A stretch of DNA of 54,855 nucleotides from assembly GCA_002699025.1 (NCBI GenBank), contig PABA01000133.1:1-54855 (forward strand), read 5' to 3'. The DNA comes from Sandaracinus sp. Its GTDB lineage: Bacteria; Myxococcota_A; Polyangia; Polyangiales; Houyiibacteriaceae. How positions within the stretch are numbered: position 1 is the stretch's first letter; every line of letters begins with the position of its first letter. Positions 1,387-51,385 of the stretch are shown here, one piece after another. The translations under genes were made by a program, and so were the position numbers. The notes beneath the pieces were generated by a model. The model made no database searches. It saw nothing but the letters and a program-made list of their open reading frames with translations, and was not told where the DNA came from.

Positions 1387-1464
1387 GCCAGGGGCGCGCC
1401 GTCCTGCAGCGCCTGCGGAGCGCCCCGGCTCGCGTCAGGCGGTCCGCTGGGGGACGGGCCGCTA

Positions 1465-1524: not shown

Positions 1525-1552
1525 CGCCGCTGAATGGTGATTCATTCGGGTG

Positions 1553-1558
1553 TATGCT
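1553..1558 (+). promoter_or_regulatory. Putative -10 box for a leaderless transcript
   Basis: TATGCT ends 6 nt before the ATG at 1565. No Shine-Dalgarno sequence lies between them, so transcription would start at or next to the start codon. No clear -35 box is visible. Confidence 0.4.
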
Positions 1559-1564
1559 GTCGCG

Positions 1565-2716: not shown

Positions 2717-2767
2717 CGCCGCCGGGCGGGGCTCGCTCAGAGCGCCGTCTGGCGGTCGCCGCGCCCG

Positions 2768-2959
2768 TCACATCGGGTCTTCGAACTCGTCGGGGGGCGG
2801 CGGCTCCTCCATCTCGTCTTCCCCGCCCGTCGTGTAGGTCTCGTCGGTGGGGGTCGTGCCGTCGTCGGTGCCCTCGGAGCCGCCGTCCCCGCCGCCGCAG
2901 GCGACGAAGAGGGGGAGGGCGAGGAGGGTGGCCAGGAGCGTGCGTCGAAGTCCGGTCAT
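2768..2959 (-). CDS. Small acidic lipoprotein
   Basis: A 63-residue protein. It has a short basic N-terminus (MTGLRRT), a hydrophobic stretch and the lipobox FVAC with Cys21, followed by a low-complexity Gly/Asp/Glu/Thr/Pro tail. After lipidation, only a disordered acidic ~42-residue chain would remain on the membrane. It lies downstream of, and on the same strand as, the DUF2063 gene, but 89 bp separate them, so co-transcription is possible but unproven. It contains no EASCG motif, so it is not a second precursor of the neighbouring RiPP locus. Function unknown. Confidence 0.6.
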   Translation of the reverse strand: MTGLRRTLLATLLALPLFVACGGGDGGSEGTDDGTTPTDETYTTGGEDEMEEPPPPDEFEDPM

Positions 2960-3048
2960 GTCGTGGGTCTCGATGCGCCAGCGTGGGCGTGGCGGGTAGG
3001 TAGGGCGAGACAGCGGCAGCGGCGAGGGGTTCCGCGCCGCGGCCGCGT

Positions 3049-10903: not shown

Positions 10904-11047
10904 GTGGTTTCGTGGGGTGGGCCCGCGGGACCGGTCGCGGTCGCGGCGGCGCAGAAGGGCGCGGCCGACCGGAGGGTCGCCGAGCGGGCGTGATTGGAAA
11001 AGGGGAGGGGGGTCGGGGCGTCGCTCCGGGAGCGCGGTGCGCGGATG

Positions 11048-12424: not shown

Positions 12425-12458
12425 GTCGCCTCGGGAGTAGCAGCCGCGCCCCGCCGCA

Positions 12459-14132: not shown

Positions 14133-14215
14133 GGATCGGGGGTAGCATCGGGCGGGGAGCCGGGCACGCGCCCTCCTGGCGCGGCGGGAGGGGAAGGAGC
14201 TGTAAGTGCTTGTCG

Positions 14216-14245
14216 TTGAAAGCCCGCGAGCGGCGGGGGTACGGT
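14216..14245 (+). promoter_or_regulatory. Candidate promoter of the outer-membrane protein cluster
   Basis: TTGAAA (14216-14221) and TACGGT (14240-14245) are 18 bp apart, with about 34 bp from the -10 box to the ATG at 14280. Confidence 0.4.
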
Positions 14246-14279
14246 CCGGCCGACGACGGGTCGCCGTCGGGTGGGTGTG

Positions 14280-36248: not shown

Positions 36249-36368
36249 GGCTCGGTCATGGGCGGGGGGCCGCCCGGTCGCAAGCGGGGAGCGGGCCGGA
36301 GGCGAGGGGGCGGCCCGGGAGCGCGTCTCGGCTTGCGGGCCCGGGCGCGGGCCGCATGGTGGTCGCCC

Positions 36369-36758
36369 ATGGCGCGGCTCTTCCTGCTCTTCGCCGCCGG
36401 CCACGGGTTTCTCGCCGTGGCCCTCGGCGCCTTCGGCGCGCACGGGCTCCAGGGGCGCCTCGCGTCGCTCGAGGACGGCGCGAAGCGGCTCGGGTGGTGG
36501 GAGACCGCCGCGCACTACCAGCTCGCCCATGCGCTGGCCCTCGGGCTCGTGGCGTGGCTCGCGAGCGCGCGGCCGAGCGGGGCGATCACGGCGGCCGGCT
36601 GGTGCTTCTTCGGGGGGCTGCTCCTCTTCTCCGGGAGCCTCTACACCATGACGCTGACCGGCCTCCGCGGGCTCGGCGCGGTGACGCCCTTCGGCGGGCT
36701 CCTGCTGCTCGGCGGCTGGGGCTGCGTCTTCGCCGCGGCCTGGCGGGGGGCGCCGTGA
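36369..36758 (+). CDS. DUF423 (TMEM256/YgdD-like) small membrane protein
   Basis: A 129-residue protein with four predicted membrane helices. The family pattern is clear: GFLAVALGAFGAHGL near the N-terminus, then WWETAAHYQLAHALAL, FFGGLLLFSGSLYTM and LGAVTPFGGLLLLGGW. Function is not established for the family. The TGA at 36756-36758 overlaps the GTG start of the following hydrolase, so the two are translationally coupled. Confidence 0.93.
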   Translation: MARLFLLFAAGHGFLAVALGAFGAHGLQGRLASLEDGAKRLGWWETAAHYQLAHALALGLVAWLASARPSGAITAAGWCFFGGLLLFSGSLYTMTLTGLRGLGAVTPFGGLLLLGGWGCVFAAAWRGAP

Positions 36759-37690
36759 GCCTCGGGCCCTTCGAGCAGCCGGCCTGGGAGGACGTGCCCG
36801 AGCGGCCGCCCCGGTCGCACGGCTTCTTCCAGCTGCCGGTGCGGCACGTGACGGCGCGGGTCGAGGGGCGGCCGCTCCGGCTATGCTACCGCGAGCATGG
36901 CGAGGGGCCGCCGCTCCTCCTGGTGCACGGCCTGATGACGAGCGGCTACTCGTTCCGCTACGTGATCGAGCCCCTCGCCGCGCTCGGCTTCCGCGTGCTC
37001 GTGCCGGACCTGCCGGGCGCCGGGCAGAGCGAAGCGCCGCCCGTGTGCTCGCCGGCGGCCCTGACCGCGAGCCTCGGCGCCTTCCTGGACGCGCTCGCGC
37101 TCCCGCGCGCGGACGTCGTCGGCAACAGCATGGGCGGCTGGCTCGCCATGCGCTGGGCGCTCGAGGCGCCGGACCGGCTCGGGCGGCTGGTGAACGTGCA
37201 CTCGCCGGCCGTCGCGCTCCGGCGACTGCGGCTCCTGCATCGCGCGCTCGCCGTCCCCGGGAGCCGCGCGGCGCTCGGGCGGCTCGTCGCGCGCGACCCG
37301 GAGCGTTGGGCCTTCGCGAACGTGCACTACTTCGACGAGGGGCTGAAGTCGCGCGAGGAGGCGCGGGTCTACGCGGCGCCGCTCAAGACCGAGGCCGGGC
37401 GGCGGGCCTTCGCGAGCTGGCTCGGGGACGGGCTCGCGCCCGAGGCCTTCGAGGCCTTCGTGGCGACGCTGCGCGCGCGGCGGGACGCGGGCGAGCCCTT
37501 CCCGGTGCCGCTCCAGCTCGTCTACGCGCGGCGCGATCCGATGGTGCCGCCGGAGGTCGGGGAGGCGCTCCACGCGCTCGTGCCGGGCGCGGAGATGGTC
37601 TGGCTCGCGGAGAGCTCGCACTTCGCGCACGTCGACACGCCGGAAGCCTTCGTCGCCGCCGTCGCGCCCTTCCTGCGCGGCGGCGCCTGA
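36755..37690 (+). CDS. Alpha/beta hydrolase
   Basis: A 311-residue protein of the alpha/beta-hydrolase fold. Motifs: LLLVHGLMTSGYSF (oxyanion region), VLVPDLPGAGQSE, the nucleophile elbow VVGNSMGGW (Ser125), then YARRDPMVPP with the acid and SSHFAHVDTP with the His near the C-terminus. It should be an esterase, haloperoxidase-like or C-C hydrolase; the substrate cannot be read. The GTG start at 36755 (GTGA) overlaps the DUF423 stop. Cytoplasmic, no signal peptide. Confidence 0.9.
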   Translation: MSLGPFEQPAWEDVPERPPRSHGFFQLPVRHVTARVEGRPLRLCYREHGEGPPLLLVHGLMTSGYSFRYVIEPLAALGFRVLVPDLPGAGQSEAPPVCSPAALTASLGAFLDALALPRADVVGNSMGGWLAMRWALEAPDRLGRLVNVHSPAVALRRLRLLHRALAVPGSRAALGRLVARDPERWAFANVHYFDEGLKSREEARVYAAPLKTEAGRRAFASWLGDGLAPEAFEAFVATLRARRDAGEPFPVPLQLVYARRDPMVPPEVGEALHALVPGAEMVWLAESSHFAHVDTPEAFVAAVAPFLRGGA

Positions 37691-37713: not shown

Positions 37714-37765
37714 GCTCGTCGGAGCCGCTCGTCGGAGCCGCTCGTCGGAGCCGCTCGTCGGAGCC
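37714..37765. repeat. 13-bp tandem repeat between convergent genes, four copies
   Basis: Four perfect units of GCTCGTCGGAGCC at 37714, 37727, 37740 and 37753. Each unit is itself an inverted repeat (GCTC/GAGC). The array ends 6 bp before the stop of the REC-kinase gene. Confidence 0.9.
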
Positions 37766-37771
37766 GCCCGC

Positions 37772-38902
37772 TCAGCGCGCGTCGGCCAGCGGGAGGCGCA
37801 CCGTGATCCGCGCGCCCTCGCCCGGGGGCGAGCTCAGGCTCACCTCGCCCCCGGCGCGCCGCGCCACCCGCCGCGCGAGGGCCAGGCCCGTGCCCGTGCC
37901 GTCCTCGCGGGTCGTGAAGTAGGGCGCGAAGATTCGCTCCTGGAGCTCGAGCGGCACGCCCGGCCCGTCGTCCTTCACGTGCAGGAGCGCGTCCTCGCCG
38001 GCCACCTCGAGCCGCACCTCGATGCGCCCCCTCGGCCGGGCCCCCTCGCGGATCGCGTGGCCGGCGTTGACGAGCAGGTTCGCCATGATCTGCCCCAGCG
38101 ACGCCGCCGCCAGCCGCACCGCCGGGCGCGCGTCGAGCGTCAGCTCCACCTCGATGGCCTCGCCGAGCTGGGGCGCGAGCAGCTGCACCGTCGACTCGAC
38201 GACCTGCGCGGCGTCGCACTGCTCGACCCGACTCTCCTCCGGCGCGGAGAGGCGCGCCGCGAAGCCCACGAGCTGCTCCACGCCGGCGAGCACGGCGCGC
38301 CCCTGGTCGACGCAGCGCTCGAGGGGCGTCCGCCCCGGGTGATCGCCGAGCTCGAAGAGCGCGTCGCGGAGCTGCTCCTGGAGGACCTGCGCGTTGAGGT
38401 TGAGCGCGTTCAGCACGTTGTTCAGCTCGTGCGCGATCTCCGACTGGACCGCGCGCGCCGTGCGGGTCGGCACCTCGCGGAGCAGTTGCCCCTCGAGCTC
38501 GCTCACGAGGCGCCGCTCGCGGGCGAGCTTCACGCCCGAGTGCAGCACCTCGAGCAGCTCCTCGTTCTCGAAGGGCTTGGTGAGGTAGCGGTGCACGGCG
38601 CCGCGGTTGATGGCGTCGATGGCCGCCTGCACGTCCGCGTAGGCCGTGAGGATCATCCGGAGCGTCCCCGGGTGGCTCCGGCGCACGCGCTCGCAGAGGG
38701 CGACGCCGGTCATGCCGGGCATGCGCTGGTCCGCCAGGAGGATCGCGGGCTCGAGCCCCTCCGCGAGCTGCTGGAGCGCCTCCTCGCCGGAGGCGGCGGT
38801 GACGAAGTCGAAGTCGTCCTCGAAGACGTAGGCGAGGGCCATGCGGTTGGCGGCCTCGTCGTCGACGTAGAGGATCGTCGCGCGCGTCTCCGCGCCGCTC
38901 AT
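37772..38902 (-). CDS. Response-regulator/histidine-kinase hybrid protein (REC-HK)
   Basis: A 376-residue cytoplasmic protein. N-terminal receiver domain 1-125: acidic pair DDE, phospho-acceptor Asp58 in LLADQRMPGMTG, Thr in ILTAYAD and Lys109 in LTKPFENEE. The kinase part has His158 in EIAHELNNVLNAL (H-box), N-box LGQIMANLLVNAGHAI, and G-boxes DDGPGVP and GTGTGLALARRVA. Receiver first and kinase second suggests a relay that is itself activated by phosphotransfer. It is the last gene of a five-gene operon, and its ATG overlaps the stop of the preceding REC-kinase (38899-38902). No DNA-binding domain is present. Confidence 0.92.
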   Translation of the reverse strand: MSGAETRATILYVDDEAANRMALAYVFEDDFDFVTAASGEEALQQLAEGLEPAILLADQRMPGMTGVALCERVRRSHPGTLRMILTAYADVQAAIDAINRGAVHRYLTKPFENEELLEVLHSGVKLARERRLVSELEGQLLREVPTRTARAVQSEIAHELNNVLNALNLNAQVLQEQLRDALFELGDHPGRTPLERCVDQGRAVLAGVEQLVGFAARLSAPEESRVEQCDAAQVVESTVQLLAPQLGEAIEVELTLDARPAVRLAAASLGQIMANLLVNAGHAIREGARPRGRIEVRLEVAGEDALLHVKDDGPGVPLELQERIFAPYFTTREDGTGTGLALARRVARRAGGEVSLSSPPGEGARITVRLPLADAR

Positions 38903-40059
38903 GGGAGACCTCCTCCGCGGACGTACTCGCCGCTCTCCTCGACGGCGTCGCTCCGCGGCAGCTCGAGCCGGAAGGCCGCGCCCACGGCCGGTCGCTCGGC
39001 CTCGAGCTGGCCGCCGCTCGCCTCCGCGAGGTGACGGGAGATCGCGAGGCCGAGGCCCGCGGCGCCCGGACGCGTCGTGAACTGCGGATCGAAGATGCGG
39101 GGTAGCACCTCGGGGGAGATGCCGTGGCCCGTGTCCTCGACGCGCACGCGCGCCCAGCCGTCGTCCTCGTCGACGACGACCCGGATCTCGCCGCGGTCGA
39201 GCTCCTGCACGGCCTGCGCGGCGTTCGTGAGGAGGTGGCTGAGCACCTGGGCGAGGTCGCCGGGATCGATGCGCACCTGGGGCGTCGCGTCGACCTGCAC
39301 GGTGAGGCGCGTCGTCGGGGCGAGCTGGGTGCGGATCAGGCGCACGGTCGAGTCGACGGCCCGGGAGAGGTCGAGCGTCGGCGGGCGGCGCGCGGGCGAG
39401 AGGGCCGAGAGGTCGCGCTGGAGCGCTTCGAGCTCGCCGACGCTGAGGAGCACGTCCCCCTGCGTGCGTTCGAGCTCCGCGAGGAGCGCCTTCCGGTGGG
39501 CCTCGTCGCTCGAGCGGTGGGCCGCGTGGGTCAGGTCCCGGGCATGCTCCACGAGGCGGCGGAGGCGGACGACGCGCTCGCCGAGGCCGCTCGCCACCTC
39601 CCGCGACGCGGCCCGGGCGCCGGCCCCGGCCCCGCCCCGGAGGAGGCTCTCCTGGAGCTCCCGCACGCTCCGGGCGGCGTGCACCAGCTCGATGGAGGCC
39701 CGGAGCACGTCCTCGAGCTCCTCGTTGCGGATGGGCTTCTCGAGCCAGCGCAGGACCTGCCCGCGGTTCACCGCGTCCACGACCGCGTGCAGATCCGCGT
39801 AGGCCGTCAGGATGATGCGCAGCGTGTCCGGGCAGAGCGTGCGCGCTCGCTCGCAGAGGTCCACCCCCGTCATGCCGGGCATGCGCTGGTCGGCGAGGAG
39901 CACGGCGTAGCGTTCGCGTTCGAGCATGCGCAGCGCTTCCTCGCCCGAGGTCGCGATGTCGATCCGGAACGTGTCCTCGAGGGCGTACTGCACCGCGAGC
40001 AGGTTGGCGCGGTCATCGTCCACGTAGAGCACCGGGTACGACCGGAGGTCCAGCGACAC
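38899..40059 (-). CDS. REC-HK protein lacking the phospho-acceptor histidine
   Basis: A 386-residue relative of the next gene. The receiver is intact: DDD, Asp57 in LLADQRMPGMTG, ILTAYAD, Lys108 in LEKPIRNEE. In the region aligning with the H-box (EIAHELNN in the neighbour) it has EVASGLGER, so Ser157 occupies the His position. The ATP-binding domain looks complete: LAQVLSHLLTNAAQAV, EDTGHGISP, AGLGLAISRHLAEASGG. It may phosphorylate nothing itself and act as a scaffold, or trans-phosphorylate another kinase. It starts 12 bp after the hybrid kinase stop and is translationally coupled to the downstream gene. Confidence 0.9.
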   Translation of the reverse strand: MSLDLRSYPVLYVDDDRANLLAVQYALEDTFRIDIATSGEEALRMLERERYAVLLADQRMPGMTGVDLCERARTLCPDTLRIILTAYADLHAVVDAVNRGQVLRWLEKPIRNEELEDVLRASIELVHAARSVRELQESLLRGGAGAGARAASREVASGLGERVVRLRRLVEHARDLTHAAHRSSDEAHRKALLAELERTQGDVLLSVGELEALQRDLSALSPARRPPTLDLSRAVDSTVRLIRTQLAPTTRLTVQVDATPQVRIDPGDLAQVLSHLLTNAAQAVQELDRGEIRVVVDEDDGWARVRVEDTGHGISPEVLPRIFDPQFTTRPGAAGLGLAISRHLAEASGGQLEAERPAVGAAFRLELPRSDAVEESGEYVRGGGLP

Positions 40060-40071
40060 CCGCGGAGCCTA

Positions 40072-42879
40072 TCAGAGCCGGGGGGCAGAGGCGCTGGGGG
40101 TGTTCCCGGGGGAGGGGCGGGGGGAACCCTCGGGGAGGGGGAGCACGACGGTGAAGCGGGCGCCGCCGAGCGTGGGGGAGGCGTCCGCGTCGATGGTGCC
40201 GCCGTGGGCGCTCACGATCTCGCGGGCGATCGAGAGCCCGAGGCCCGTGCCCTCGCCGGCGGGGCGGGAGGTGACGAAGGGGTCGAAGAGGCGCGGGAGG
40301 ACGGAGGGCTCGATGCCCGGGCCCGAGTCCTCGACGGTGATGCGGTAGCGGCCGCCCTCGACCCGGCCGCGGATGCGCACGCGCCCCCGATCGCCGACGG
40401 CCCGCGCCGCGTTGTCGACGAGGTTCAGGAAGACGTGGTTCAGGTCGCCGGCGCGCCCCTCGAGCGCGGTCTCTTCGTCCACGTCGGTCTCCACCTCGAC
40501 GTCGTCCGGGACGCGGGCCGAGAGCAGGCGGACGGCCGCGAGGAGCCCCTGGCCCGGCTGGAGCGTCCCCTCCTCCTCCCGGTCGACGCGCGAGAGGTCG
40601 AGCAGGTCGACGGAGATGCGCTCGATGCGGTTGGCGCAGTCGATGAACACCTCGAGCATCTCGTCCGTGCGCGCGTCGGCCTTCCCCGTGAGCTTGCGGC
40701 GGACGGCCGGGAGGCCGCTGACCAAGGCCGTGAGCGGGTTGCGCACCTGGTGGGCGACGGACGCGGCGAGGACGCCGAGGGTGGCGAGGCGCTCCTGGTG
40801 CGCGAGCCGGTGGAGCATGCCCCGGATGCGGAGCTGCACGTCGAGGCGCGCGAGGAGCTCCCGGCCGTGGAAGGGCTTGACCACGTAGTCGTCGGCGCCC
40901 GCGTCGAAGCCCTCGAGCACCTGGGAGGGCTCGCCGCGGGCCGTGACGAGGAGGATGGGGACGTCGCGGAGCTTCGGGTCGGCGCGGAGCGCGCGCGTCA
41001 GGCCGAGGCCATCGAGCTCGGGCATGGCGACGTCCGCGACGACGACGTCCGGCTGGAGCTCGCGGGCGCGCTCGAGGCCGCGGCGGCCGTGGGCGGCGGT
41101 GGCGACGCGGTAGCGCGCGGCGAGGACGTCCGTGAGGAAGGCGCGGAGCTCGGGGTGGTCCTCGACGACGAGGGCGAGCGGGGCGTTCGCGTCCGGGCCG
41201 CTGCGCAGCTCCTCGGGCGCGCCGCTCTGGCGGGGCGTGGGCAGGGGCTCGGCGCCGCGGGCCTCGACCGGCTCCGCGGGGGCGCTCGCGACGATGCGCG
41301 GGAGCACCAGCCGGAAGAGGGCGCCGCCGCCCGCGCCCTCGTCGAGCTCGGCGCGCCCACCGTGGAGGCGCGCGGCCTCTTGCACCAGCGCCAGGCCGAG
41401 GCCCGTGCCGCCCCGGCGGCGCGCCGCGTCGCTCGCCTGGGAGAAGCGCTCGAAGATGCGCTCCCGATCCTCGGCCGGGACGCCCGGGCCGTCGTCCTCC
41501 ACCTCGAAGACGAGCTCGCCGCCGGCGTCGCGGAAGCGGACCGTGACCGCGCTCTCGGCGAAGCGGAGCGCGTTGGCGAGCAGGTTGCCGAGGGCGGTCT
41601 CCATCCAGGTCGGATCGAGGGCGACCGGCGCGGAGCGCTCGGGCGTCTCGACGGAGAGCGCGACGCCCTGCGTGACGGCGAGGGCCTGGGCCGGCGAGAC
41701 GAGCGCGTGGACGAGCTGCCCCGCGTCGACCGGGGCCCGCTGCACCGTGGCCCGGCCGGCGTCGACCTTCGCCAGGTCGAGGAGCTGGTTGATGAGGCGG
41801 AGGAGGCGCTTGGCGTTCGCCTCCATCGTCTCGAGGGCCTGCTCCGGGCCGCCCGGGGGCGCTTCGCCGCGGCGCAGGGCTTCGAGGGGCGAGAGGAGGA
41901 GCGTGAGCGGCGTGCGGAGCTCGTGCGAGACGTTCGCGAAGAAGTCCGTCTTGGCCTGCGCGAGGTCGCGGACCTCGTCGAGGGTCTGCTGGAGCCGGGC
42001 GCTGGTCTCGAGGAGCTCGGAGGTGCGCTCCTTCACCTTCCGCTCGACGCCGCTCTTCGCCTCGAGGAGCTCGCCGAAGCGCTGCTCGTTGGCGAGCGTG
42101 CTCCGCTCGAGCGCGTCCTGCTGCTCGATGACGAGGCGCTGGCTCTCCCCGAGCTCCTGCCGCAGCTCCCACTGGCGCACGAGGGCCCAGGAGGCGAAGG
42201 CGCCGAGGACCGTGCCGACGCCGAGCGCGAGCGGGCCGAGCTCGAGGGTCAGGGCGGCCGCGACTCCCGCGCCGGCGCCGAGGAGGAGCGCGAGGCGGCT
42301 GCGGAACTTCGGGAGGCGCTCGACGTAGCGGATCTCGTAGACGCAGGCGTCATCACCCCGGTGCATGCACTCGGGGTGCTCGAGCTTCGCCGGGGGCAGG
42401 TCGAAGATGGTCGGGACGGCGGCCATGTTCTGCTGCCGTCCGAGGCACATGAGCGGGTCCGTCTCCGCCGCGGCGCCGGGCTTCTGGCGGTAGGTCAGGC
42501 GCACGTGGCGCGGGCCGACCTGTTCGAAGCCGAGCTCGCCCACCTTGTTGAAGCGCGGGAGCGAGCGGACCATCTGCTCGTAGGCCTTCCCCGTGTTGCC
42601 GAAGGCGCGGATGATGGCGCGGAGCGGGCCCATGTAACGCGCGGTGAACGCGGCGCGCGCCGCGCGGGCGACGTAGAGCGGGTCGCCGACGGCCTCGTGG
42701 AGCGTGCGCACGATGCGCTCCGAGTCCTTCATCGAGAGCCAGGCCGAGGGGTCCCGGAGGAGCTCGAGCTCGATGCCCTGCTCCTCGAGGAGCTCGCGGA
42801 CCCGCGCCTCGCCGAGCTGCTCGGCGGCGAGGTCGAGGAAGGGAGCCAGGAAGAAGGCGTGGAGGTCGGCGCTCTTCAC
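40072..42879 (-). CDS. Membrane hybrid histidine kinase with two kinase cores and an internal receiver
   Basis: A 935-residue protein. Residues 1-190 form a sensor with Cys145, Cys171 and Cys179; HPECMHRGDDACVYEI is like the C-terminal Cys motif of V4R/heme-NO-type sensors. Two membrane helices at ~196-233, then a coiled coil. First kinase core: His319 in FFANVSHELRTPL and an ATPase domain to ~540. Receiver 567-690: Asp616 in VVVADVAMPELDG. Second kinase core: His710 in LAASVAHQVRNPLTAL, N-box HVFLNLVDNAARAV and GTGLGLSIAREI. GTG 42879 overlaps the methyltransferase TGA (GTGA). Third gene of the operon. Confidence 0.92.
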   Translation of the reverse strand: MKSADLHAFFLAPFLDLAAEQLGEARVRELLEEQGIELELLRDPSAWLSMKDSERIVRTLHEAVGDPLYVARAARAAFTARYMGPLRAIIRAFGNTGKAYEQMVRSLPRFNKVGELGFEQVGPRHVRLTYRQKPGAAAETDPLMCLGRQQNMAAVPTIFDLPPAKLEHPECMHRGDDACVYEIRYVERLPKFRSRLALLLGAGAGVAAALTLELGPLALGVGTVLGAFASWALVRQWELRQELGESQRLVIEQQDALERSTLANEQRFGELLEAKSGVERKVKERTSELLETSARLQQTLDEVRDLAQAKTDFFANVSHELRTPLTLLLSPLEALRRGEAPPGGPEQALETMEANAKRLLRLINQLLDLAKVDAGRATVQRAPVDAGQLVHALVSPAQALAVTQGVALSVETPERSAPVALDPTWMETALGNLLANALRFAESAVTVRFRDAGGELVFEVEDDGPGVPAEDRERIFERFSQASDAARRRGGTGLGLALVQEAARLHGGRAELDEGAGGGALFRLVLPRIVASAPAEPVEARGAEPLPTPRQSGAPEELRSGPDANAPLALVVEDHPELRAFLTDVLAARYRVATAAHGRRGLERARELQPDVVVADVAMPELDGLGLTRALRADPKLRDVPILLVTARGEPSQVLEGFDAGADDYVVKPFHGRELLARLDVQLRIRGMLHRLAHQERLATLGVLAASVAHQVRNPLTALVSGLPAVRRKLTGKADARTDEMLEVFIDCANRIERISVDLLDLSRVDREEEGTLQPGQGLLAAVRLLSARVPDDVEVETDVDEETALEGRAGDLNHVFLNLVDNAARAVGDRGRVRIRGRVEGGRYRITVEDSGPGIEPSVLPRLFDPFVTSRPAGEGTGLGLSIAREIVSAHGGTIDADASPTLGGARFTVVLPLPEGSPRPSPGNTPSASAPRL

Positions 42880-43724
42880 GACGCGCTCCCCTCCGGGCGG
42901 CGCCGGGCGCTCAGGAGGAGCAGGGTGGCCATGGCGAAGCTCCCCGGGGCCGCCGCCCACTCGCCCGCCTCGGCCCGACCCGCGGCGAGGGCCTCCGGAT
43001 CGGTCGTCGTCGCGTGGAGGTAGGGGAGAAGGAGCAGCTCGGCGAAGGCCTCCGGGCCGATGTCGTCGCTCGTGAGCGTCGCCGCCTCCACCTTCACCTC
43101 GCTCCAGCCGGCGCCGAGCGCCAGCGCGCGCAGCCGGCGTCCCACGAAGGGGTCCGCGCCGCGCTCGAGCGTGCGCGCGATCCACGTCTGCCGGGCGGCC
43201 TCGCAGCGCCGGGGCGCGGGCTCGCTGACGAAGCTCGCGTGGTCCGTGTCGACGGCGAGCAGCGCGCCGCCCGGCGCCGTGACGCGGTGGAGCTCGGCGA
43301 GCACGGCCGCCGGGTCCGGGACGTGCTGGAGCATCAGCCGCGTGTGCACGGCGGGGACGCTCCGCGCGGGGAGCGGGAGCCGGTCGGCGCGCGCGACGAG
43401 CGCGGGGCGAGGCGCGTGGCGCAGGATCGACCGGTCGACGTCCACGCAGAGCGTCTCGACGCCGGCGTCCCGGAGGAAGCGCGCCGGGGCGCCGGAGCCC
43501 GCGCCGACGTCGAGGACGAAGGGCGCGTCGAGGAGGCCCGCCCGCCGGTAGGCGCCCTCGTGCATGCCCACCAGCCGCCGCGCCTGCAGCTCGAGGCGGC
43601 TCAGCTCGCGCTCCCGATCGGCGAAGCCTCCCAAGGCGTAGCCGCCGCCGGGCGCGCTCCGGCCGACGTCACCGCCCGCGGCGTCGCCGCCCGCGACGTC
43701 TCCGTTCCCGGCGTCTCCGCTCAT
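42876..43724 (-). CDS. Class I SAM-dependent methyltransferase
   Basis: A 282-residue protein. Residues 1-22 are a Gly/Asp/Ala repeat (GDV/GDA). Motif I is FVLDVGAGSGAPARF (69-83), with CVDVDRS as the acidic post-motif and LMLQHVPDPAAVLAELHRVTAPGG as motifs II-III. The layout resembles Methyltransf_11/25 small-molecule enzymes rather than CheR. The ATG overlaps the PilZ-like gene stop (43721-43724) and its TGA overlaps the kinase start, so it is embedded in a signalling operon. It may modify a signal or cofactor sensed by that kinase, but this is inference. Confidence 0.88.
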   Translation of the reverse strand: MSGDAGNGDVAGGDAAGGDVGRSAPGGGYALGGFADRERELSRLELQARRLVGMHEGAYRRAGLLDAPFVLDVGAGSGAPARFLRDAGVETLCVDVDRSILRHAPRPALVARADRLPLPARSVPAVHTRLMLQHVPDPAAVLAELHRVTAPGGALLAVDTDHASFVSEPAPRRCEAARQTWIARTLERGADPFVGRRLRALALGAGWSEVKVEAATLTSDDIGPEAFAELLLLPYLHATTTDPEALAAGRAEAGEWAAAPGSFAMATLLLLSARRRPEGSAS

Positions 43725-45982
43725 GACGCCACCGCGCGCGACTCGGCGCTCCAATGGGCCTGGGCGGCTCCGTAGCTCTCCATGAGGAAGGAGACGTAGC
43801 GGCGAAGGCCGGCCCGGTTCAACACGTAGACGTTGGCGTCGAAGGCATGCTCGAGGCCCGCGCGCTCGAACTCGGTCGTCGGCAGCGTGCCGGGGGCGAG
43901 GAGCAGGCGCACCGGCTCGGCTCGCTGCAGCCGGAGCGTGCGGAGCGCGTGGCGCACGGCGTCGTCGTGTTGGCTCGCCGTGGGGCGCTCGGGCGAGCCG
44001 TGGAGGGGCAGCAGCCACGTGCCGTCGAGGATGCCGGGGATGCAGAGCGACGGGGAGCATCGCTCCGTCACCATCGCCATCCGCGCGCGACCTCTGCGCG
44101 AGAGGACCGCGAGCTCGCGCCGCCGGACCAGCCCCGCCGCGGCGAAGCGTCGTCGGAGCCGCGCGAGGGTCAGGGTCTCGGCGTCGAGCCCCAGCCCACG
44201 GGCGACGAGGGCGCCCATCTCCCGCGTCGCCGCGTGCTCGATGAGCGCCCGGTGCCGTCTGCGCAGCCCCACGGTCCGGAAGCCGTCGAGGGTGGGCTCG
44301 GCGGGGCGCGTGCGCGGCAGCAGCCAGGCCTGGATGCGCGCCTTGCCGACCGCCTCGCTGGTCCCCGTGAGCTCCTGGAAGCGCGTGTGGATGCGGTTCA
44401 TCTTCGCGTTCTCGGCTGCGGCGAAGAAGACCATGTAGCGGCAATCGGGCTTCAGGATGACGTGGTCCAGGAACGCGAGCAGGAGCGTGCCCGGGGTGCA
44501 CCCGCGGCGGCGCGGCTGGGCGGCGAGGTGCTGGCCCAGCCAGACCCGGTCCCAGGCCTGCAGGGCCGTCACGCTCGCGACGGCCTCGCCATCCTCGTAG
44601 CGCGCGAGCGTCCGGCAGAGCGACGCCCCCTCGGTGTGGGCGCGCCGCCAGGCGAGCGCCGCGTCCTCGCCGGCGGCCTCGAGGAGCTGATTCATGTGCG
44701 GCATGAGCAGCCCGCGGTCGCGATAGAGGGCGAGCTGGGCCTCGAAGGAGGCGCCATCGTGCGCCTCGAGGGAAGGGTGTCGGAGCTCCGCGAGCAGGTC
44801 GGCGAAGCGCGGGTCCTCCCGACGATGGTTGAACGCGAGGTGCACGCGGCGCTCCCCCACGTGCCGCACCTGCACGTCACCGAGCGCCGTGCGGAAGTCG
44901 CCGACCTCGAGGCGGGCGTCGCGGAGCGGGAGATCCTCCCAGAGGAGGGCGTCCTCGCGGGCGGGCGCGTCGAAGCAGAGGCCGCCCAGGGAGAGGTCCT
45001 GCACGGCCCCGCGCGCCGTGCGGCCCGAGACGGGGTTGCGGTAGTGGAAGACGGCGTCGCGCTCCTTCGGGATGCGCGCCCGGGTCTCGGCGCGACGACG
45101 GCGGCGGCGCAGGACGAGGGGGAGAGCGAGGACGGTGGCGCCGCGGCCGACGCGCGTGACGCGGGTGACCCGCGTGATCGTCTCGTAGCTCGCCGCGAAG
45201 AGGTCGAAGCGGAGCTCGACATGCGGTTCGTCGGGGACCTCGCCCTCGAGGTGGAGCTCGGCCTGCTCGAGATCGAGGCGCGCGAACATCGAGGGCGCGC
45301 CGGCCAGCTGCGCCTCCAGCTGGAGGAGCGAGGCCAGCTCGAGCACCTGCCGGATGCGGTCCGGATCGGAGACCAGCTCGTACTCGCCGGGGCTCTCCTC
45401 GGAGCGCGGGACGAAGTCGATGCGGACCCAGAAGCGCTGTCGGTTGTGGGGCGAGTACCAGGGCACCACCTCGCGCACGACCCCGCCGCAGCGTCGGAGC
45501 GGGCCTTCGTCCCCCAGGAGCTCGACGGTGCCGAGCTCTTCCCCGGTGTGGAAGTCGGGGGGCGCGTCGATCACGCAGTGGCCGCGGCCGATCGAGCAGA
45601 CCGGGAAGGTGTGGAGGTCCCCGCGCTGCGGGCAGGTCAGGTAGAGGGAGCGGGCCTGGTAGCTGCTGCTCTTCGGCTCGCGCTCGGTGAAGAGGCGCGC
45701 GTCGGCGAGGGGGACGCAGACCACGTCCGGGGCGTGGACCTCGGCCGCCGTGCTCACGAGCGTCCAGCCCCGCTCGGGGGCGTGGATGGAGAGGGGGCCG
45801 TCGCTCTCGCCGAGCCCGCGCACCCCCACCGGGTGGAGCACCAGCTGGGCCGCGCGGCGAGGGCCCTGGATGCGCTCGAGGAAGCCGGAGCAGGCGACGC
45901 CGCCGGGGCGCCGGGCGACCACGGGCTCGAGCTCGGCCACCGAGGCGCGAAGCTGCCGCATGAGCTCGGTAGACCCGATCAT
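43721..45982 (-). CDS. PilZ-like domain protein with GNAT-like C-terminal region
   Basis: A 753-residue cytoplasmic protein, first gene of the operon. Residues 1-220 resemble a YcgR-N/PilZN-type domain (PPDFHTGEELG, FWVRIDFVPRSEE). RARIPKERDAVFHYR (301-315) and VQDLSLGGLCF (Asp329, Ser331, Gly334) are the PilZ c-di-GMP motifs, but the arginines are spaced RxxxxR rather than RxxxR, so binding should be tested. Residues ~430-560 (LAFLDHVILKPDCRYMVFFAAAENAKM) look like an acyltransferase (GNAT-like) fold. ATG 45982 is chosen because a TATCTT box lies 8 nt upstream; an in-frame earlier start would overlap it. Confidence 0.75.
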   Translation of the reverse strand: MIGSTELMRQLRASVAELEPVVARRPGGVACSGFLERIQGPRRAAQLVLHPVGVRGLGESDGPLSIHAPERGWTLVSTAAEVHAPDVVCVPLADARLFTEREPKSSSYQARSLYLTCPQRGDLHTFPVCSIGRGHCVIDAPPDFHTGEELGTVELLGDEGPLRRCGGVVREVVPWYSPHNRQRFWVRIDFVPRSEESPGEYELVSDPDRIRQVLELASLLQLEAQLAGAPSMFARLDLEQAELHLEGEVPDEPHVELRFDLFAASYETITRVTRVTRVGRGATVLALPLVLRRRRRRAETRARIPKERDAVFHYRNPVSGRTARGAVQDLSLGGLCFDAPAREDALLWEDLPLRDARLEVGDFRTALGDVQVRHVGERRVHLAFNHRREDPRFADLLAELRHPSLEAHDGASFEAQLALYRDRGLLMPHMNQLLEAAGEDAALAWRRAHTEGASLCRTLARYEDGEAVASVTALQAWDRVWLGQHLAAQPRRRGCTPGTLLLAFLDHVILKPDCRYMVFFAAAENAKMNRIHTRFQELTGTSEAVGKARIQAWLLPRTRPAEPTLDGFRTVGLRRRHRALIEHAATREMGALVARGLGLDAETLTLARLRRRFAAAGLVRRRELAVLSRRGRARMAMVTERCSPSLCIPGILDGTWLLPLHGSPERPTASQHDDAVRHALRTLRLQRAEPVRLLLAPGTLPTTEFERAGLEHAFDANVYVLNRAGLRRYVSFLMESYGAAQAHWSAESRAVAS

Positions 45983-46136: not shown

Positions 46137-46559
46137 TCAGATCTGTCGGACGATCTGCTCGACGACGTCCTGGGCGACGCGACGGGCCTTCTTGGTCGTG
46201 CCGCCGCGCATGGTCGTCGAGTCGGCCTCCACGCTGCGGAGCACGGCGCCGTCGGGGGCGACGAGGTCGGCGCGGGCCCGCATGCGGGTCGGGCCGAAGG
46301 AGCCGTTGCGGAACTCCGTGATGGTCACGCGGAGGGCCGGTCCCTCACCCGCCGCGAGGCTGCCGCGGAGCGCCTCGCGCATGTGGCGGACGGCGTCGTA
46401 GTCGACGAGGGCCTCGCGTCGGTCCTCGCCGAGGGCGGGGTCGAGCTGGACCTGGACCTCGGCGACGGAGCCCTCGGCGCTCGGCTGGACGGGGTGGACC
46501 TCGAAGCCGGCGCAGGCGACGGAGAGGAGGAGGGGGGCGAAGAGCATCAGACGATTCAT
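46137..46559 (-). CDS. Small lipoprotein, DUF4410-like
   Basis: A 140-residue protein with a signal sequence and lipobox SVAC (Cys16). The mature chain has VEVQVQLDPALGEDRREALVDYDAVRHMREALRGSL followed by LRVTITEFRNGSFGPTRMRARADLVAPDGAVLRSVEADSTT; this 'calculate a sum of small helices then beta strands' layout resembles DUF4410/DUF3313-type lipoproteins, but I do not place it firmly. ATG 46559 is chosen over an upstream GTG because it starts the signal. It is transcribed away from dus, with a 65-bp divergent gap. Confidence 0.6.
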   Translation of the reverse strand: MNRLMLFAPLLLSVACAGFEVHPVQPSAEGSVAEVQVQLDPALGEDRREALVDYDAVRHMREALRGSLAAGEGPALRVTITEFRNGSFGPTRMRARADLVAPDGAVLRSVEADSTTMRGGTTKKARRVAQDVVEQIVRQI

Positions 46560-46624
46560 GGCCGCGCTCGTCGGCACGTCCGCCTGCTGGTTGCTCCCGG
46601 GGCTGCTATCTCTGCGGCCTCGCC

Positions 46625-47689
46625 GTGTTCCCCTTCGCGCCGCCGACGATGCTCGCCCCCATGGAGGGCGTCAGCCACCCGACCTTCCGCCGCCTGATCG
46701 CCGAGCGGGGCGGCGTGGGTGTCGTCTGCACGGAGTTCGTGCGCGTCTCGCGGGCGCCGCTGAGCCCGGTGGCGCTCCGGCGCGAGGTGGTGAAGGTGCC
46801 GGGCGTGCCCCTCTCCGTGCAGGTCATGGGGAACGACGCGGAGAAGATGGCGGACGCGGCGCACCACGTGGCGGACGCGGGCGCGGACGTGGTCGACATC
46901 AACCTCGGCTGCCCCATGCCGCGGGTCGTGAAGAAGGGCGTCGGCGCGGCGATGCTGAAGGACCCGGCGCTGCTGGCGCGGGTGCTCGGGGCGATGCGGG
47001 AGCGGACGCCGGGGCTCCTGAGCGCGAAGATCCGCGCGGGCTTCGACGACGCGGAGAACGTCGTGCGCATCGCGAAGACCGTGGAGGCGGCGGGGGTCGA
47101 CTTCCTGGTCGTGCACCCGCGGACCCGGCGGGACCTCTACGAGGGCGTGGCGGACTGGCGCATCGTGCGCGTGCTGAAGGAGGCCCTCGCGATCCCGGTC
47201 GTGGGGAACGGCGACGTCTGGTACGCGGCGGACGCGCTCCGCATGGAGCGGGAGACGGGCTGCGACGCGGTGATGATCGGGCGGCCGGCCATGCGGAACC
47301 CGTGGATCTTCGAGCAGGTCGCGGCGCTGCGCGCCGGGGAAGCGCCCTTCGATCCGAGCGGGGCGGACCTCGCGGAGTGGCTGCATCGGGTGCGGGCGGT
47401 CTACGAGGAGGAGATCGGCGGCAACGTGCCGGGGAAGCTCAAGGAGCTCCTGCGCTGGATGGGCCGCGCGGTCGACGACGGGGGCGCGTTCCGGCAGGCG
47501 GCGCTGCGGGCGCCGGACGCGGACGCCATCCTCGGGGAGGTGGACGCGCGGCTCCGGCCGCTGGGGCCCGAGGCGCTCGACCTCGACGCGCACGGGCGGC
47601 ACCGCTTCGAGCGGAGCGGCGCGGCGGAGGGGTCGGGCTCGCGCTCGGGCTCGGTGGGGGGCTCGGCCCCGGCGCCTCGCGTCGCCTGA
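46625..47689 (+). CDS. dus: tRNA-dihydrouridine synthase
   Basis: A 354-residue FMN enzyme that reduces uridine to dihydrouridine in tRNA. The family core is complete: LAPMEGVSHPTFRRL, VQVMGNDAEKMADAA, the catalytic Cys96 in DINLGCPMPRVVKKG, SAKIRAGFDD, VVHPRTRRDLYEG, NGDVWYAADAL and MIGRPAMRNPWIF. It looks DusB/DusA-like; the exact tRNA position is not deducible. The C-terminal ~35 residues are a Gly/Ser-rich tail. The GTG start follows CTGCTATCTC by about 12 nt; a leader of only a few bases is implied. Confidence 0.93.
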   Translation: MFPFAPPTMLAPMEGVSHPTFRRLIAERGGVGVVCTEFVRVSRAPLSPVALRREVVKVPGVPLSVQVMGNDAEKMADAAHHVADAGADVVDINLGCPMPRVVKKGVGAAMLKDPALLARVLGAMRERTPGLLSAKIRAGFDDAENVVRIAKTVEAAGVDFLVVHPRTRRDLYEGVADWRIVRVLKEALAIPVVGNGDVWYAADALRMERETGCDAVMIGRPAMRNPWIFEQVAALRAGEAPFDPSGADLAEWLHRVRAVYEEEIGGNVPGKLKELLRWMGRAVDDGGAFRQAALRAPDADAILGEVDARLRPLGPEALDLDAHGRHRFERSGAAEGSGSRSGSVGGSAPAPRVA

Positions 47690-47809: not shown

Positions 47810-49372
47810 GTGCGCCATCTCCCGCTCCTCCCGCTCCTCGTGCTCGCCGGGGCGGCCACCGTGCAGCCAGCGCTCGCGCAGCCCGCGAGCTCCCGGCCGG
47901 GGCCGTCCCCGCCCGCCGAGCCGTCCGGCGAGATCGAGGTCCACCAGGCGCTCGCGCGCGCCCTCGAGGCGAACCCCAGCGTGCGCGTCGCCCTCCTCGA
48001 GGTGGTCGCGGCCCGGGCGGGGACCCGCGCCGCCGAGCTCGCGCGCGCGCCGACCCTCCGCGCCGACATGAGCGGGGCCTACCAGGAGAGCCTCGCGGGC
48101 ACCGGCGTCGGCGTCACGCGGAACGACAGCCAGACCGTGTCGCTCGGGCTCGGCCTCGACTGGACGAGCGACGCGGGCACGGTGATCGCCGTGGACGCCT
48201 CGAGCGGGGTGCGCTGGCGCTCCACCAACCGGGACCCGAGCACGGACCTGACCGTCACCATCGGGCCGAACTACGACGTGCAGCTCGGCACCTCGCTCCG
48301 CCAGCCGCTCCTGCGCGGCGCGGGTCGGCGGTCCGTCCGCGCCGCCGAGCGGGAGGCGGCCGCCGCCGAACGGCGCGTGGGCCACGAGCGGGACGTGGAG
48401 GTGAGCGCGGTCGTGCGGGACGTGCTCGCCGCCTACTGGGAGCTCTGGTACGCGGAGCGGGCTCTGGAGGTGCAGCGGGAGGCCGAGGCGCTGGCCGCGC
48501 GGCAGCTCGAGGAGGCCCGGGCCCGGGTGGAGCTCGGCTCGCTCGCGCCCGTCGACGCGCTCCGCTTCGCCAGCGAGCTGGCCTCTCTCCGGGAGACGCG
48601 GCGGAGCGCCGAGGCCAGCCGGGTCCAGGCGCGCGTCGCCCTCGCCGAGCTCCTCGCCGTCGCCCCCGGGAGCCTCCGCACCGCCGCGCCGCCGCCGGAG
48701 GCGCCCGCGCTCCCGAGCCTCGAGGCGCTCCTCGCGCGGGTGGAGGCGACCTCGCCGACGCTGCTCGCCCTGGACGCCGGCGTGGAGGAGGCCGAGGAGC
48801 GGCTCACGGCCGCCCGAGACGCCGCCCGCGCGCGCCTCGACGCGGTGGCCGACGTCGGCGTCTACGCGCTCTGGGCCACCGACGACGCCCTCGCCGGCGC
48901 CCAGCTCCCCGACGGGCGCCCGGCCTTCGTCGCGAGCGGGGGGCTCGAGCTCGAGCTCCCGCTGGGCTCGGCCGCCGCCGACGCGCGCCGGGACGCGGCC
49001 GTCGCCCAGCTCGCGGCGGCCCGCGCCCAGCGGGAGCAGCAGGCCCGGGCGCTCCGCGCGCGGGTGCGCGAGCGCTTCGAGGCCGTGGCCTCGGCCCGGG
49101 ACCGGGTGCCCCTCGCCGACGAGACGGCGAGCGTGGCCGCCGAGCTCGGGGAGGCGGAGCGGGCGCGCCTCGAGCTGGGGACGACCACCAGCGCCGATCT
49201 TCTCCAGGCCCAGCAGACCGCCCGGGAGGCCGCGCTGCGGCGCTTGCGGGTGCTCGTGGACGCGACCGTCGCCGCGCAGGGCCTGGCCCACGAAGCCGGC
49301 GCGCTCCTCGATCGCTTCTCTCTGCGCGTCCCCGACGCGGGCGAGCTCGCCGAGGTCGACGATGTCCACTGA
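47810..49372 (+). CDS. TolC-family outer-membrane efflux protein
   Basis: A 520-residue protein with a signal peptide (MRHLPLLPLLVLAGAATVQPALAQ). The mature part has two OEP repeats rich in long helices: LARALEANPSVRVALLEV near 45-65 and LLARVEATSPTLLALDAGVEEAEERL near 310. LSLGLGLDWTSDAG-type strands lie between. It is the outer-membrane channel of a tripartite exporter. GTG 47810 is the start. It overlaps the adaptor gene by 11 bp (49362-49372), the first of three overlaps in the operon. Confidence 0.88.
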   Translation: MRHLPLLPLLVLAGAATVQPALAQPASSRPGPSPPAEPSGEIEVHQALARALEANPSVRVALLEVVAARAGTRAAELARAPTLRADMSGAYQESLAGTGVGVTRNDSQTVSLGLGLDWTSDAGTVIAVDASSGVRWRSTNRDPSTDLTVTIGPNYDVQLGTSLRQPLLRGAGRRSVRAAEREAAAAERRVGHERDVEVSAVVRDVLAAYWELWYAERALEVQREAEALAARQLEEARARVELGSLAPVDALRFASELASLRETRRSAEASRVQARVALAELLAVAPGSLRTAAPPPEAPALPSLEALLARVEATSPTLLALDAGVEEAEERLTAARDAARARLDAVADVGVYALWATDDALAGAQLPDGRPAFVASGGLELELPLGSAAADARRDAAVAQLAAARAQREQQARALRARVRERFEAVASARDRVPLADETASVAAELGEAERARLELGTTTSADLLQAQQTAREAALRRLRVLVDATVAAQGLAHEAGALLDRFSLRVPDAGELAEVDDVH

Positions 49373-50603
49373 TGTTGCCCGCCCCGGCGCGCTCGCGCGC
49401 CTCCGCCGCCTCGCCCTCCCGCTCGTCGTCGTCCTCGGCCTCGGCGGGGGCCTGACCTGGTGGCTCCTCTCGCGCGACGCCGAGCGGTCCGCGCCCATCG
49501 AGACGGTCCGCGTGGAGCGGGGGAGCATCCGCGAGACCGCCGAGGCGACGGGGCACGTCGAGCCGCACGTGCAGGTGGAGGTGAAGTCCGAGATCGCCGG
49601 GGAGATCGTCGAGGTGCTCGCACGCGAGGGCGTCACCGTGGAGCAGGGCGAGGTCCTCTTCCGCGTCGACCGGCGCGACGCCGAGCGGAGCCTCGAAGAC
49701 GCCCGCGTGGCCCTGCAGCGGAGCCGCGCGGAGCTGGCCCAGGCGCGCGCGAACCTCGCCGTCGCCCGGGCGCAGGCCGAGGAGGCCGACGCGGCCCGGG
49801 ACCTCGCCGCGCGCAGCACGGAGCGGGGCCTCCTCAGCGCGGAGGCGAACCGGACGGCCGCCTCCAACGCGGCCGTGGCGCGGGCGACCCAGCTCCAGCG
49901 TCGGGCCGCCGTGCAGGCCGGCGTGGCGAGCGTCGCGGCGGCTCGGCTCGCCGTGCAGGATGCCGAGCAGCGCCTGAGCGAGACGGAGATCGTCGCGCCC
50001 ATCGCCGGTACGGTGCTCGACGTGGCCGTGGAGGTCGGCTCCATCGTCGCCTCCGCCACGGCCAACCTGAGCGGCGGCGAGCCGCTGGCGACGCTCGCGG
50101 ACCTCTCGGACCTGCGCGTGATCGGCGAGATCGACGAGGCGCAGATCGCGCGGGTCGAGCCGGGCCAGCGTGTGGAGATCCGCGTCGACGCCTATCCGGA
50201 CCGCGTCTTCGCCGGGCGCGTGGAGCGGGTGGCGCCCCTCGGCGTGGAGGAGGCGAGCGTGGTGAGCTTCGAGGTGGAGATCGTGGTCGTCGACGAGGAG
50301 GCGGCGCGCCTCCGCTCGGGGATGAGCGCGGACCTCTCGATCCTCACGGGCGAGGTCGAGGGGGTCCTCGTGCCGCTGGTCGCGGTGCGGAGCGAGGGGG
50401 GCGAGCGCGTCGTGCAGCTCGCCTCCGGGGAGGTGCGGGCCATCCGCGCCGGCGCCACCGACGGCCGCTCGCTCGTCGTGCTCGACGGGCTCGAGGCGGG
50501 CGACGAGGTGCGGATCACGCCGCTCGCGAGCGGGGCCGCCGCGTCCGGGCAGCGCGGCGGGAACCCCTTCATGCCGGGCCCCGGCCGGCGAGGGCGGCGA
50601 TGA
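49362..50603 (+). CDS. MacA/HlyD-family periplasmic adaptor
   Basis: A 413-residue protein with one N-terminal membrane helix (LALPLVVVLGLGGGLTWWLL). After it come VERGSIRETAEATGHVEPHVQVEVKSEIAGEIVEV (lipoyl half), a helical hairpin (coiled coil about 120-210) and the second lipoyl/beta-barrel part (IVAPIAGTVLDVAVEVGSIV, LRVIGEIDEAQIARVEPGQ). It links the inner-membrane MacB-like transporter to the TolC-like channel. Its stop overlaps the ATPase ATG. Confidence 0.9.
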   Translation: MSTDVARPGALARLRRLALPLVVVLGLGGGLTWWLLSRDAERSAPIETVRVERGSIRETAEATGHVEPHVQVEVKSEIAGEIVEVLAREGVTVEQGEVLFRVDRRDAERSLEDARVALQRSRAELAQARANLAVARAQAEEADAARDLAARSTERGLLSAEANRTAASNAAVARATQLQRRAAVQAGVASVAAARLAVQDAEQRLSETEIVAPIAGTVLDVAVEVGSIVASATANLSGGEPLATLADLSDLRVIGEIDEAQIARVEPGQRVEIRVDAYPDRVFAGRVERVAPLGVEEASVVSFEVEIVVVDEEAARLRSGMSADLSILTGEVEGVLVPLVAVRSEGGERVVQLASGEVRAIRAGATDGRSLVVLDGLEAGDEVRITPLASGAAASGQRGGNPFMPGPGRRGRR

Positions 50604-51385
50604 GCGAGGCCGTCGCGGCGGTCGGGGAGGGCGCGTCCGACGCGGCCGTCCCCACGGTCGAGGTCGAGGGGCTCACGAAGGTCTACCAGGCGGGCGATCC
50701 GGACCTCGCCGTGCGGGCCCTCGACGGGCTCGACTTCCGCATCGAGCGCGGCGACTCCGTGGCCATCGTCGGCCCGTCCGGCTGCGGCAAGTCCACGTTG
50801 CTGCACGTGCTCGGCTGCCTGGATCGGCCGACCTCGGGCCGCTACCGGCTCGAGGGCCAGGACGTCGCGAACCTGGACGAGGACGCGCTCGCCCGCATCC
50901 GCAACCATCACATCGGCTTCGTCTTCCAGTCCTTCAACCTGCTCCCGCGCATGAGCGCCGTGGAGAACGTCGAGCTCCCCCTGCTCTACGCCGGCGTATC
51001 CGGCGGGCGCGAGCGCGCCCTCTCCGCCCTCGCGCGGGTCGGCCTCGCGGACCAGGCCCACCGCTGGCCGAACGAGCTCTCGGGGGGGCAGAACCAGCGC
51101 GTCGCCATCGCCCGCGCGCTCGTCACGCGCCCCTCGCTCCTCCTCGGCGACGAGCCCACGGGCGCCCTCGACAGCGGCACGAGCGCCGACGTGCTCGACC
51201 TGCTCACGACCCTCCACGACGAGGGCACGACCCTGGTCCTCGTCACCCACGACATCGCCGTGGCCCGCCGGCTGCGGCGCGCGATCTGGATGCGGGACGG
51301 GCGCATCGTCGACGACGGCCCCTCGGGTCCCGTGCTCGACGCCTTCATCGAGGCCACCGCGGGGGGCGCCGATGCTCCTGCGTGA
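50600..51385 (+). CDS. MacB-type ABC transporter ATP-binding protein
   Basis: A 261-residue ATPase. Walker A GPSGCGKST (58-66), Q-loop VFQSFNLLPR, signature LSGGQNQR, Walker B LLLGDEPTGALD and H-loop VTHD. The LolD/MacB-like class energises lipoprotein release or macrolide/peptide efflux. ATG 50600 overlaps the adaptor TGA (ATGA), and its own end overlaps the permease start by 14 bp. The substrate is unknown. Confidence 0.93.
   Translation: MSEAVAAVGEGASDAAVPTVEVEGLTKVYQAGDPDLAVRALDGLDFRIERGDSVAIVGPSGCGKSTLLHVLGCLDRPTSGRYRLEGQDVANLDEDALARIRNHHIGFVFQSFNLLPRMSAVENVELPLLYAGVSGGRERALSALARVGLADQAHRWPNELSGGQNQRVAIARALVTRPSLLLGDEPTGALDSGTSADVLDLLTTLHDEGTTLVLVTHDIAVARRLRRAIWMRDGRIVDDGPSGPVLDAFIEATAGGADAPA

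Follow-up and report, generated by a model that had tools for sequence, protein, structure and literature searches.

What could place a PilZ-type protein, a methyltransferase and a series of histidine kinases in one tightly packed set of genes? The question is raised by a locus of Sandaracinus sp., contig PABA01000133.1, analysed within a stretch of 54,855 nucleotides, referred to here as the window. Five open reading frames, g1 to g5, all on the minus strand, occupy positions 37772-45982 and encode, in this order, a PilZ/tandem-GNAT protein, an S-adenosylmethionine (SAM) methyltransferase, a double-core hybrid histidine kinase and two proteins pairing a receiver (REC) domain with a kinase module. 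The junction sequences, read directly, consist of 4-bp overlaps at g1/g2 (ATGA), g2/g3 (GTGA) and g4/g5 (ATGA) and a 12-bp gap at g3/g4. A convergent alpha/beta hydrolase gene (36356-37690) bounds the set on one side and a divergent Dus gene (46625-47689) on the other, and no DNA-binding domain is present within g1-g5. Both the junctions and the missing DNA-binding output domain agree with an earlier note on this DNA. The reading put forward here is a coupled synthesis-sensing module: an acyltransferase gated by cyclic di-GMP (c-di-GMP), tailoring by the methyltransferase, a V4R-type kinase sensing the product or a relative of it, and a phosphorelay with its output elsewhere. As a whole this reading is plausible, held at a little under an even chance. 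The enzymes probably build a small fatty molecule, and there is a good chance that the cassette is a real signalling family; since the kit recurs across the phylum with its parts shuffled, it may represent a chemical-signalling system not yet described.

Conservation and linkage of the gene set

A search of 144 genomes of the same order gives a g1 match (E <= 1e-8) in 10 of them. The exact order g1-g2-g3-g4-g5 recurs in two loci from another genus of the same family, L022 (JAHBWH010000058.1) and L023 (JALOQC010000032.1), with identities to the window of 41% for g1, 43-45% for g2, 55% for g3, 48-52% for g4 and 47-49% for g5. The gene-neighbourhood comparison suggested in the earlier note thus finds the five-gene order twice more, and the objection named there, that the order might not be conserved, falls away. 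In five further genomes g1 lies near g3 without the methyltransferase and with 0-2 REC-kinases, the orders and orientations being changed; g1 and g3 stay linked in these rearranged orders at 30-50% identity.

The wider family was collected with a profile built from 13 g1 homologues, which at E <= 1e-10 reaches 39 of the 377 Myxococcota genomes, in part through matches to PilZ alone. Neighbourhoods were examined for 32 g1-family loci and the window, 33 in total. Of these, 22 have a double-core hybrid kinase in the neighbourhood, usually together with a REC-kinase; at the frequency with which looser double-core kinases occur in genomes without g1, we estimate that well under 1% of genes would be expected to have one within 10 kb. 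The count includes L075, where the hybrid kinase adjoining the g1-family gene (1052-3727) is split into three reading frames by frameshifts or assembly errors. A ThiF-nitroreductase fusion of the TrzS/Rv1355c type is found in 16 of the 33 loci, usually directly downstream of g1 or the kinase; two of these fusions were scanned and match the NCBIfam model NF005901 ('Rv1355c family protein', cut-off 476) with 654 and 768 bits. TrzS gives way to a SAM methyltransferase in the window, L022, L023, L029 and L070. It is the methyltransferase that varies within the module, most relatives having a TrzS-family enzyme or other genes in its stead.

The kinases are accompanied by further enzymes. Among double-core hybrid kinases that have no g1 nearby, those of L113 and L116, each with a REC-kinase, are immediately preceded by a PilZ-methyltransferase fusion (L113 11880-13331, L116 827-2497); a protein of this type, though with weaker matches to the domains, takes that position in L114 (6848-8356, only the methyltransferase above threshold) and L117 (10868-12463). 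In L115 (11480-14668) a protein with PilZ, a hydrolase-like region and a methyltransferase directly precedes the kinase pair, and in L119 (8356-13615) a KAS III/thiolase-like protein stands beside a V4R-like hybrid kinase and a REC-kinase, possibly a further synthase-sensor set. In L025, genes for a tryptophan halogenase, a P450 and an O-methyltransferase separate g1 from g3 (10122-14281) and may form a small biosynthetic cluster; a fatty-acid desaturase gene follows g3. Fatty-acid desaturase genes occur near these kinases in L024, L025, L111 and L112, next door to the kinase in the last two, and the L031 cluster includes an AMP ligase, named from its sequence. From the neighbourhoods of L111-L117, L119 and L025, the kinase pair is repeatedly found beside enzymes of small or fatty molecules, often PilZ-fused.

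Domain architecture of the five proteins

The g1 protein (43721..45982, 753 residues) is encoded by the first gene of the operon; its architecture, drawn from the reading frame, Pfam, AlphaFold, Foldseek and VIA, resembles that of the Myxococcus xanthus protein PixB. The AlphaFold model, built from nine orthologues with a mean predicted local distance difference test score (pLDDT) of 79, consists of two small N-terminal barrels, a YcgR-N/PilZ pair and two tandem GNAT folds. The YcgR-N-like domain spans residues ~198-296 (45095..45391; VIA-align to 5y6h YcgR-N, Z 12.2), and the PilZ domain, recognized by Pfam, VIA and a bipartite c-di-GMP motif, spans residues ~294-404 (44771..45103). Its Pfam match (E 3.5e-4) is just under the Pfam cut-off, and the GNAT match is weak. 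The motif itself, RRRRRRAETR from residue 292 and DLSLGG from residue 329, corresponds to the RxxxR and D/NxSxxG pattern of PilZ receptors of the YcgR/MrkH type, and PilZ entries align with Z 11-14; MrkH in complex with c-di-GMP (5kgo) superposes on residues 200-407 with Z 14.1, a root-mean-square deviation of 3.4 and 203 aligned positions. It is preserved intact in g1 of the window and in L022, L023 and L025.

The first GNAT (residues ~402-556, 44315..44779), assigned from the model and VIA, carries an acyl-CoA-loop-like sequence, RGCTPG. The second (residues ~568-728, 43799..44281) is supported by secondary structure and by tandem-GNAT matches spanning residues 402-728, and by eye shows no clear acyl-CoA loop. 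The best VIA matches to residues 379-728 are histidine acetyltransferase entries (Z 14.8-15.0), one of which holds N-myristoyl-histidine, followed by VipF, a tandem GNAT of the clavulanic pathway and N-myristoyltransferases (Z ~11); this is a likeness of fold and does not imply the reaction. The g1 profile finds no significant match among the sequences of solved structures, only weak ones to YcgR/Alg44, and neither g1 nor g2 reaches an NCBIfam equivalog. By model and Foldseek/VIA, g1 has the PixB-type arrangement, in which GNAT comes after a PilZ module within a single polypeptide, and its catalytic heart, as modelled, is a tandem acyltransferase rather than PilZ alone. A partial duplicate of g1 (about 259 residues) lies between two REC-kinases in L028 (17450-18226).

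The g2 protein (42876..43724, 282 residues) is a class I SAM methyltransferase with the motif VLDVGAGSG and a Pfam Methyltransf_11 match of E 2.7e-15; it is not CheR-like by Pfam.

The g3 protein (40072..42879, GTG start, 935 residues) consists of an N-terminal sensor domain, putative membrane-spanning segments and a HisKA-HATPase-REC-HisKA-HATPase chain, assigned by Pfam and catalytic motifs, with H319, D616 and H710. HisKA, HATPase and REC carry their catalytic residues, as in hybrid histidine kinases, and the protein is 45-55% identical in six relatives. The membrane-spanning segments (42175..42306), between sensor and coiled coil, are predicted from hydropathy peaks at residues 194-234 and from a modelled helix at 192-211, with a long helix starting at 216. 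The sensor domain (residues ~6-189, 42313..42864) is predicted by Pfam, AlphaFold and VIA to adopt a V4R/H-NOX/VirS fold with a putative zinc site, C145-E167-C171-C179. Within the first 190 residues the AraC-type ligand domain PF12625 scores 29.1 bits, over the Pfam cut-off, with a weak V4R match at the end. The sensor model (pLDDT 89) places it in the V4R fold by Foldseek and VIA, with matches to H-NOX (Z 14.7), VirS (Z 13.4), Bet3 (Z about 9) and the phenol sensor MopR (Z 8.8). C145, E167, C171 and C179 do not vary among seven orthologues and are spaced 22-4-8, and the sequence fits the V4R/XylR-type zinc pattern Cys-x(20-22)-Glu-x(2-4)-Cys-x7-Cys. H-NOX haem domains have a proximal haem histidine and a YxSxR motif; the only histidine invariant in the g3 domain is H7, and H168 is present in 6 of the 7 orthologues. 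A haem-binding H-NOX sensor is disfavoured despite being the best fold match: because the invariant residues are those of V4R-type zinc sites and no haem ligand is evident, the domain is read as V4R-like. On the model, this front end looks like a pocket for lipophilic molecules. The kinases of TrzS-type clusters have a homologous N-terminal domain (hhalign 97%, E 3.6e-11) but lack the cysteines.

The last two proteins form a pair, both assigned by Pfam and motifs. The g4 protein (38899..40059, GTG start, 386 residues) is a REC-HATPase with D57 in the receiver and no phospho-histidine, and g5 (37772..38902, 376 residues) is a REC-histidine kinase with H158 in IAHELNN and D58 in the receiver. 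The His-less state of g4 is kept in L022, L023, L027 and L028, and the histidine of g5 is kept in its orthologues. Because such pairs, one member with and one without the phospho-histidine, are kept in five loci, the copy without histidine seems to be a functioning partner and not a product of decay.

These results bear out most of the earlier note's gene assignments, namely a SAM methyltransferase, a double-core hybrid kinase and two REC-kinases, one without and one with the histidine. Its description of g1 as PilZ-like/GNAT-like stands as far as both domains are present; the YcgR-type N-domain and the tandem arrangement of two GNATs were overlooked, as was the ligand-domain fold at the N-terminus of g3.

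Proposed mechanism and competing explanations

The mechanism builds on gene content, junctions, conservation, linkage and predicted folds, and proposes from them c-di-GMP binding, a chemistry, a ligand, a phosphate flow and an output. The tandem-GNAT acyltransferase g1 would have its activity set by c-di-GMP through the YcgR-type PilZ module; its most likely reaction is the N-acylation of an amino acid or a comparable amine, with acyl-CoA as donor. The product would be methylated by g2, in the position held by the TrzS-type cyclase/desaturase in most relatives. This lipophilic product, or a close relative of it, would bind the V4R/H-NOX-fold domain of the membrane-anchored g3, which would pass phosphate from H319 to D616 and onward to the receiver proteins g5, the active REC-kinase, and g4, a His-less REC-ATPase that probably acts as partner or as brake. 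The response regulator at the end of the relay would be encoded elsewhere. A NarL-type response regulator gene stands beside the module in L027, L028 and L111, which makes an output in trans likely and marks where it could sit; with these relatives, the earlier description of the module as self-contained is left unproven. The earlier proposal that a c-di-GMP-type PilZ protein, a methyltransferase and a phosphorelay are joined here is strengthened by the order kept in two genomes, the PilZ-methyltransferase fusions upstream of the same kinase pair and the conserved pair of REC-kinases.

Several observations weigh against the coupled module. A nearby double-core kinase is lacking in 8 of the 33 g1-family loci, and 3 more are cut by contig ends. 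Many genomes that lack g1 contain between one and three looser double-core kinases (370-580 bits), so the kinase core score alone is not diagnostic of linkage and was rejected as proof of it. Sensor and synthase are linked by neighbourhood only. Neither GNAT half of g1 has the textbook Q/RxxGxG/A loop, and the Pfam scores for GNAT are weak. No TrzS fusion is found in the window genome, which has only separate weak nitroreductase and ThiF matches. The c-di-GMP motif is degenerate in L016, L024 and L026-L028, five of the nine close orthologues, so control by c-di-GMP is not universal.

The main rival makes the enzymes the output of the relay: the kinases would sense an outside or membrane cue and tune, with c-di-GMP, a lipid or surface modification by g1 and g2 whose product is structural or protective. 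TrzS-family fusions and g1-family genes co-occur without kinases in eight loci (L074, L079-L081, L083, L084, L088 and L118), which means that the enzymes function with no sensor at hand; stress-linked roles are proposed for oxazolones (PMC12856293), and in L022, L023 and L025 genes of a GldAFG-type ABC transporter precede g1. The fold of the g3 sensor, however, is a ligand-binding type known for aromatic and hydrophobic ligands, the kinase and the enzymes stay linked through gene shuffling, and g1 and g2 offer no direct phosphorylation target. This explanation is held somewhat less likely than the coupled module.

Protein modification and mere co-location are less likely than this rival. In the former, g1 and g2 would carry out a c-di-GMP-controlled acetylation and methylation that regulates motility or kinases, as proposed for PixB. 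That protein binds c-di-GMP, depends on its acetyltransferase domain and works by way of the Frz pathway (PMC8316039), and the family members of L029, L070, L084 and L087 resemble it in architecture and in how their PilZ motifs are spaced. Yet the substrate of PixB is unknown (PMC8316039), g2 lacks the CheR likeness, and the enzymes that partner g1 in relatives, namely TrzS, halogenase, P450 and desaturase, have small molecules as their substrates; a protein target is held improbable. A chance or merely co-expressed neighbourhood, sharing a promoter with no common pathway, draws on the very many kinases of myxobacteria (a first look with the g3 profile yields 187-195 candidates in the window genome) and on the varying partner enzyme. 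But g3 is the only full-length match of its profile in this genome, with 1525 bits against 217 for the next best, and kinases of this type adjoin g1-family genes in two-thirds of the neighbourhoods examined, with orders rearranged; co-location by accident is very improbable.

Taken one step beyond the window, the synthesis-sensing reading would describe an undescribed family of Myxococcota signalling cassettes. In this family c-di-GMP would directly gate the synthesis of an N-acyl lipid signal, oxazolone-related or methylated, the V4R-fold hybrid kinase of the same operon would be the receptor of that signal, and the dialect would depend on which tailoring enzyme is present, be it a methyltransferase, TrzS or another. 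This broader claim is tentative, and more guarded than that made for the locus itself. If true, it would place a lipid signal, diffusible or in the membrane, under the control of c-di-GMP. The locus and its relatives tie two questions, the role of N-acyl oxazolones and N-acyl amino acids and the substrate of PixB, to one gene neighbourhood. A candidate receptor is supplied, and therefore the question of 'signal or not' becomes one of direct binding and a kinase assay.

Described systems and surroundings of the operon

The earlier note knew of no described system with this composition. The combination was not found in the open-access papers searched, but its pieces are described, in PixB (PMC8316039) and in the tyz and trz clusters (PMC10404671, PMC12856293). 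PixB (MXAN_2604), with two PilZ domains and one GNAT and with c-di-GMP binding shown (PMC8316039), is the nearest described protein to g1, likened by architecture and description as PilZ and GNAT in one chain. Its two PilZ motifs are ~210 residues apart, a spacing that matches some g1-family members. PixB is possibly in an operon with two downstream genes and has no kinase partners in the main text of that study (PMC8316039), whereas g1 of the window has a YcgR-N/PilZ pair, two GNATs, a methyltransferase and three signalling proteins.

The nearest described chemistry is that of the trzAS/tyzACB N-acyl oxazolone clusters (PMC12856293, PMC10404671) and the stieleriacine nasY clusters (PMC12479983). 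TrzS, which is Rv1355c, cyclises and desaturates the N-acyl-tryptophan supplied by the neighbouring acyltransferase Rv1356c/TrzA to an oxazolone, the role of which the discovering group regards as a major unresolved question; the trzAS locus adjoins c-di-GMP turnover genes (PMC12856293). The trzAS arrangement, an acyltransferase gene beside a ThiF-nitroreductase gene, is shared by 16 g1 relatives. The TrzA/TyzA cluster type, an acyltransferase beside a ThiF-like cyclase and a flavin-dependent oxidase, is likewise found in these 16 and not in the window, where the methyltransferase is present; one nasY cluster has a UbiE-like methyltransferase (PMC12479983). For the trz, tyz and nasY acyltransferases neither a PilZ fusion nor a sensor kinase is reported.

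The nearest described logic is that of CqsA/CqsS and LqsA/LqsS, in which a synthase gene adjoins the gene of a sensor kinase feeding a phosphorelay (PMC3376566). By this analogy, a cassette of synthase plus sensor kinase is of a kind already known. These systems differ in the synthase chemistry, in a sensor of six transmembrane helices and in the absence of c-di-GMP gating of the synthase (PMC3376566). The g3 sensor shares its fold and Cys-Glu-Cys-Cys spacing with the V4R sensors DmpR, MopR, PoxR and XylR (PMC7264223); the zinc ligands of DmpR are C151, E172, C177 and C185, spaced 21-5-8 (PMC7264223), compared with 22-4-8 in g3. In those proteins the sensor drives an AAA+ transcription activator, whereas in g3 it is mounted on a membrane-anchored double-core hybrid kinase.

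The surroundings of the gene set vary between genomes. GldA/F/G-type ABC transporter genes with a DUF4340 protein lie immediately upstream of g1 in L022 (14282-19174), L023 (2-2300) and L025 (2845-7530) and are absent from the window. In L024 (9311-11229) the cyclic di-AMP cyclase gene cdaA (CdaA) and YbbR adjoin g1 in convergent orientation. A promoter scan found none, none being expected, and the sole terminator-like site is inside g1, at chance level. Between the end of the operon and the convergent hydrolase gene, a 13-bp unit (GCTCGTCGGAGCC) is repeated four times in exact tandem (37714-37765). A predicted lipoprotein of 146 residues, with no Pfam match, is encoded on the strand of g1 about 150 bp upstream of it (46137-46577), and beyond the Dus gene a tripartite efflux cluster of OEP, HlyD and MacB/FtsX genes occupies positions 47810-52577.

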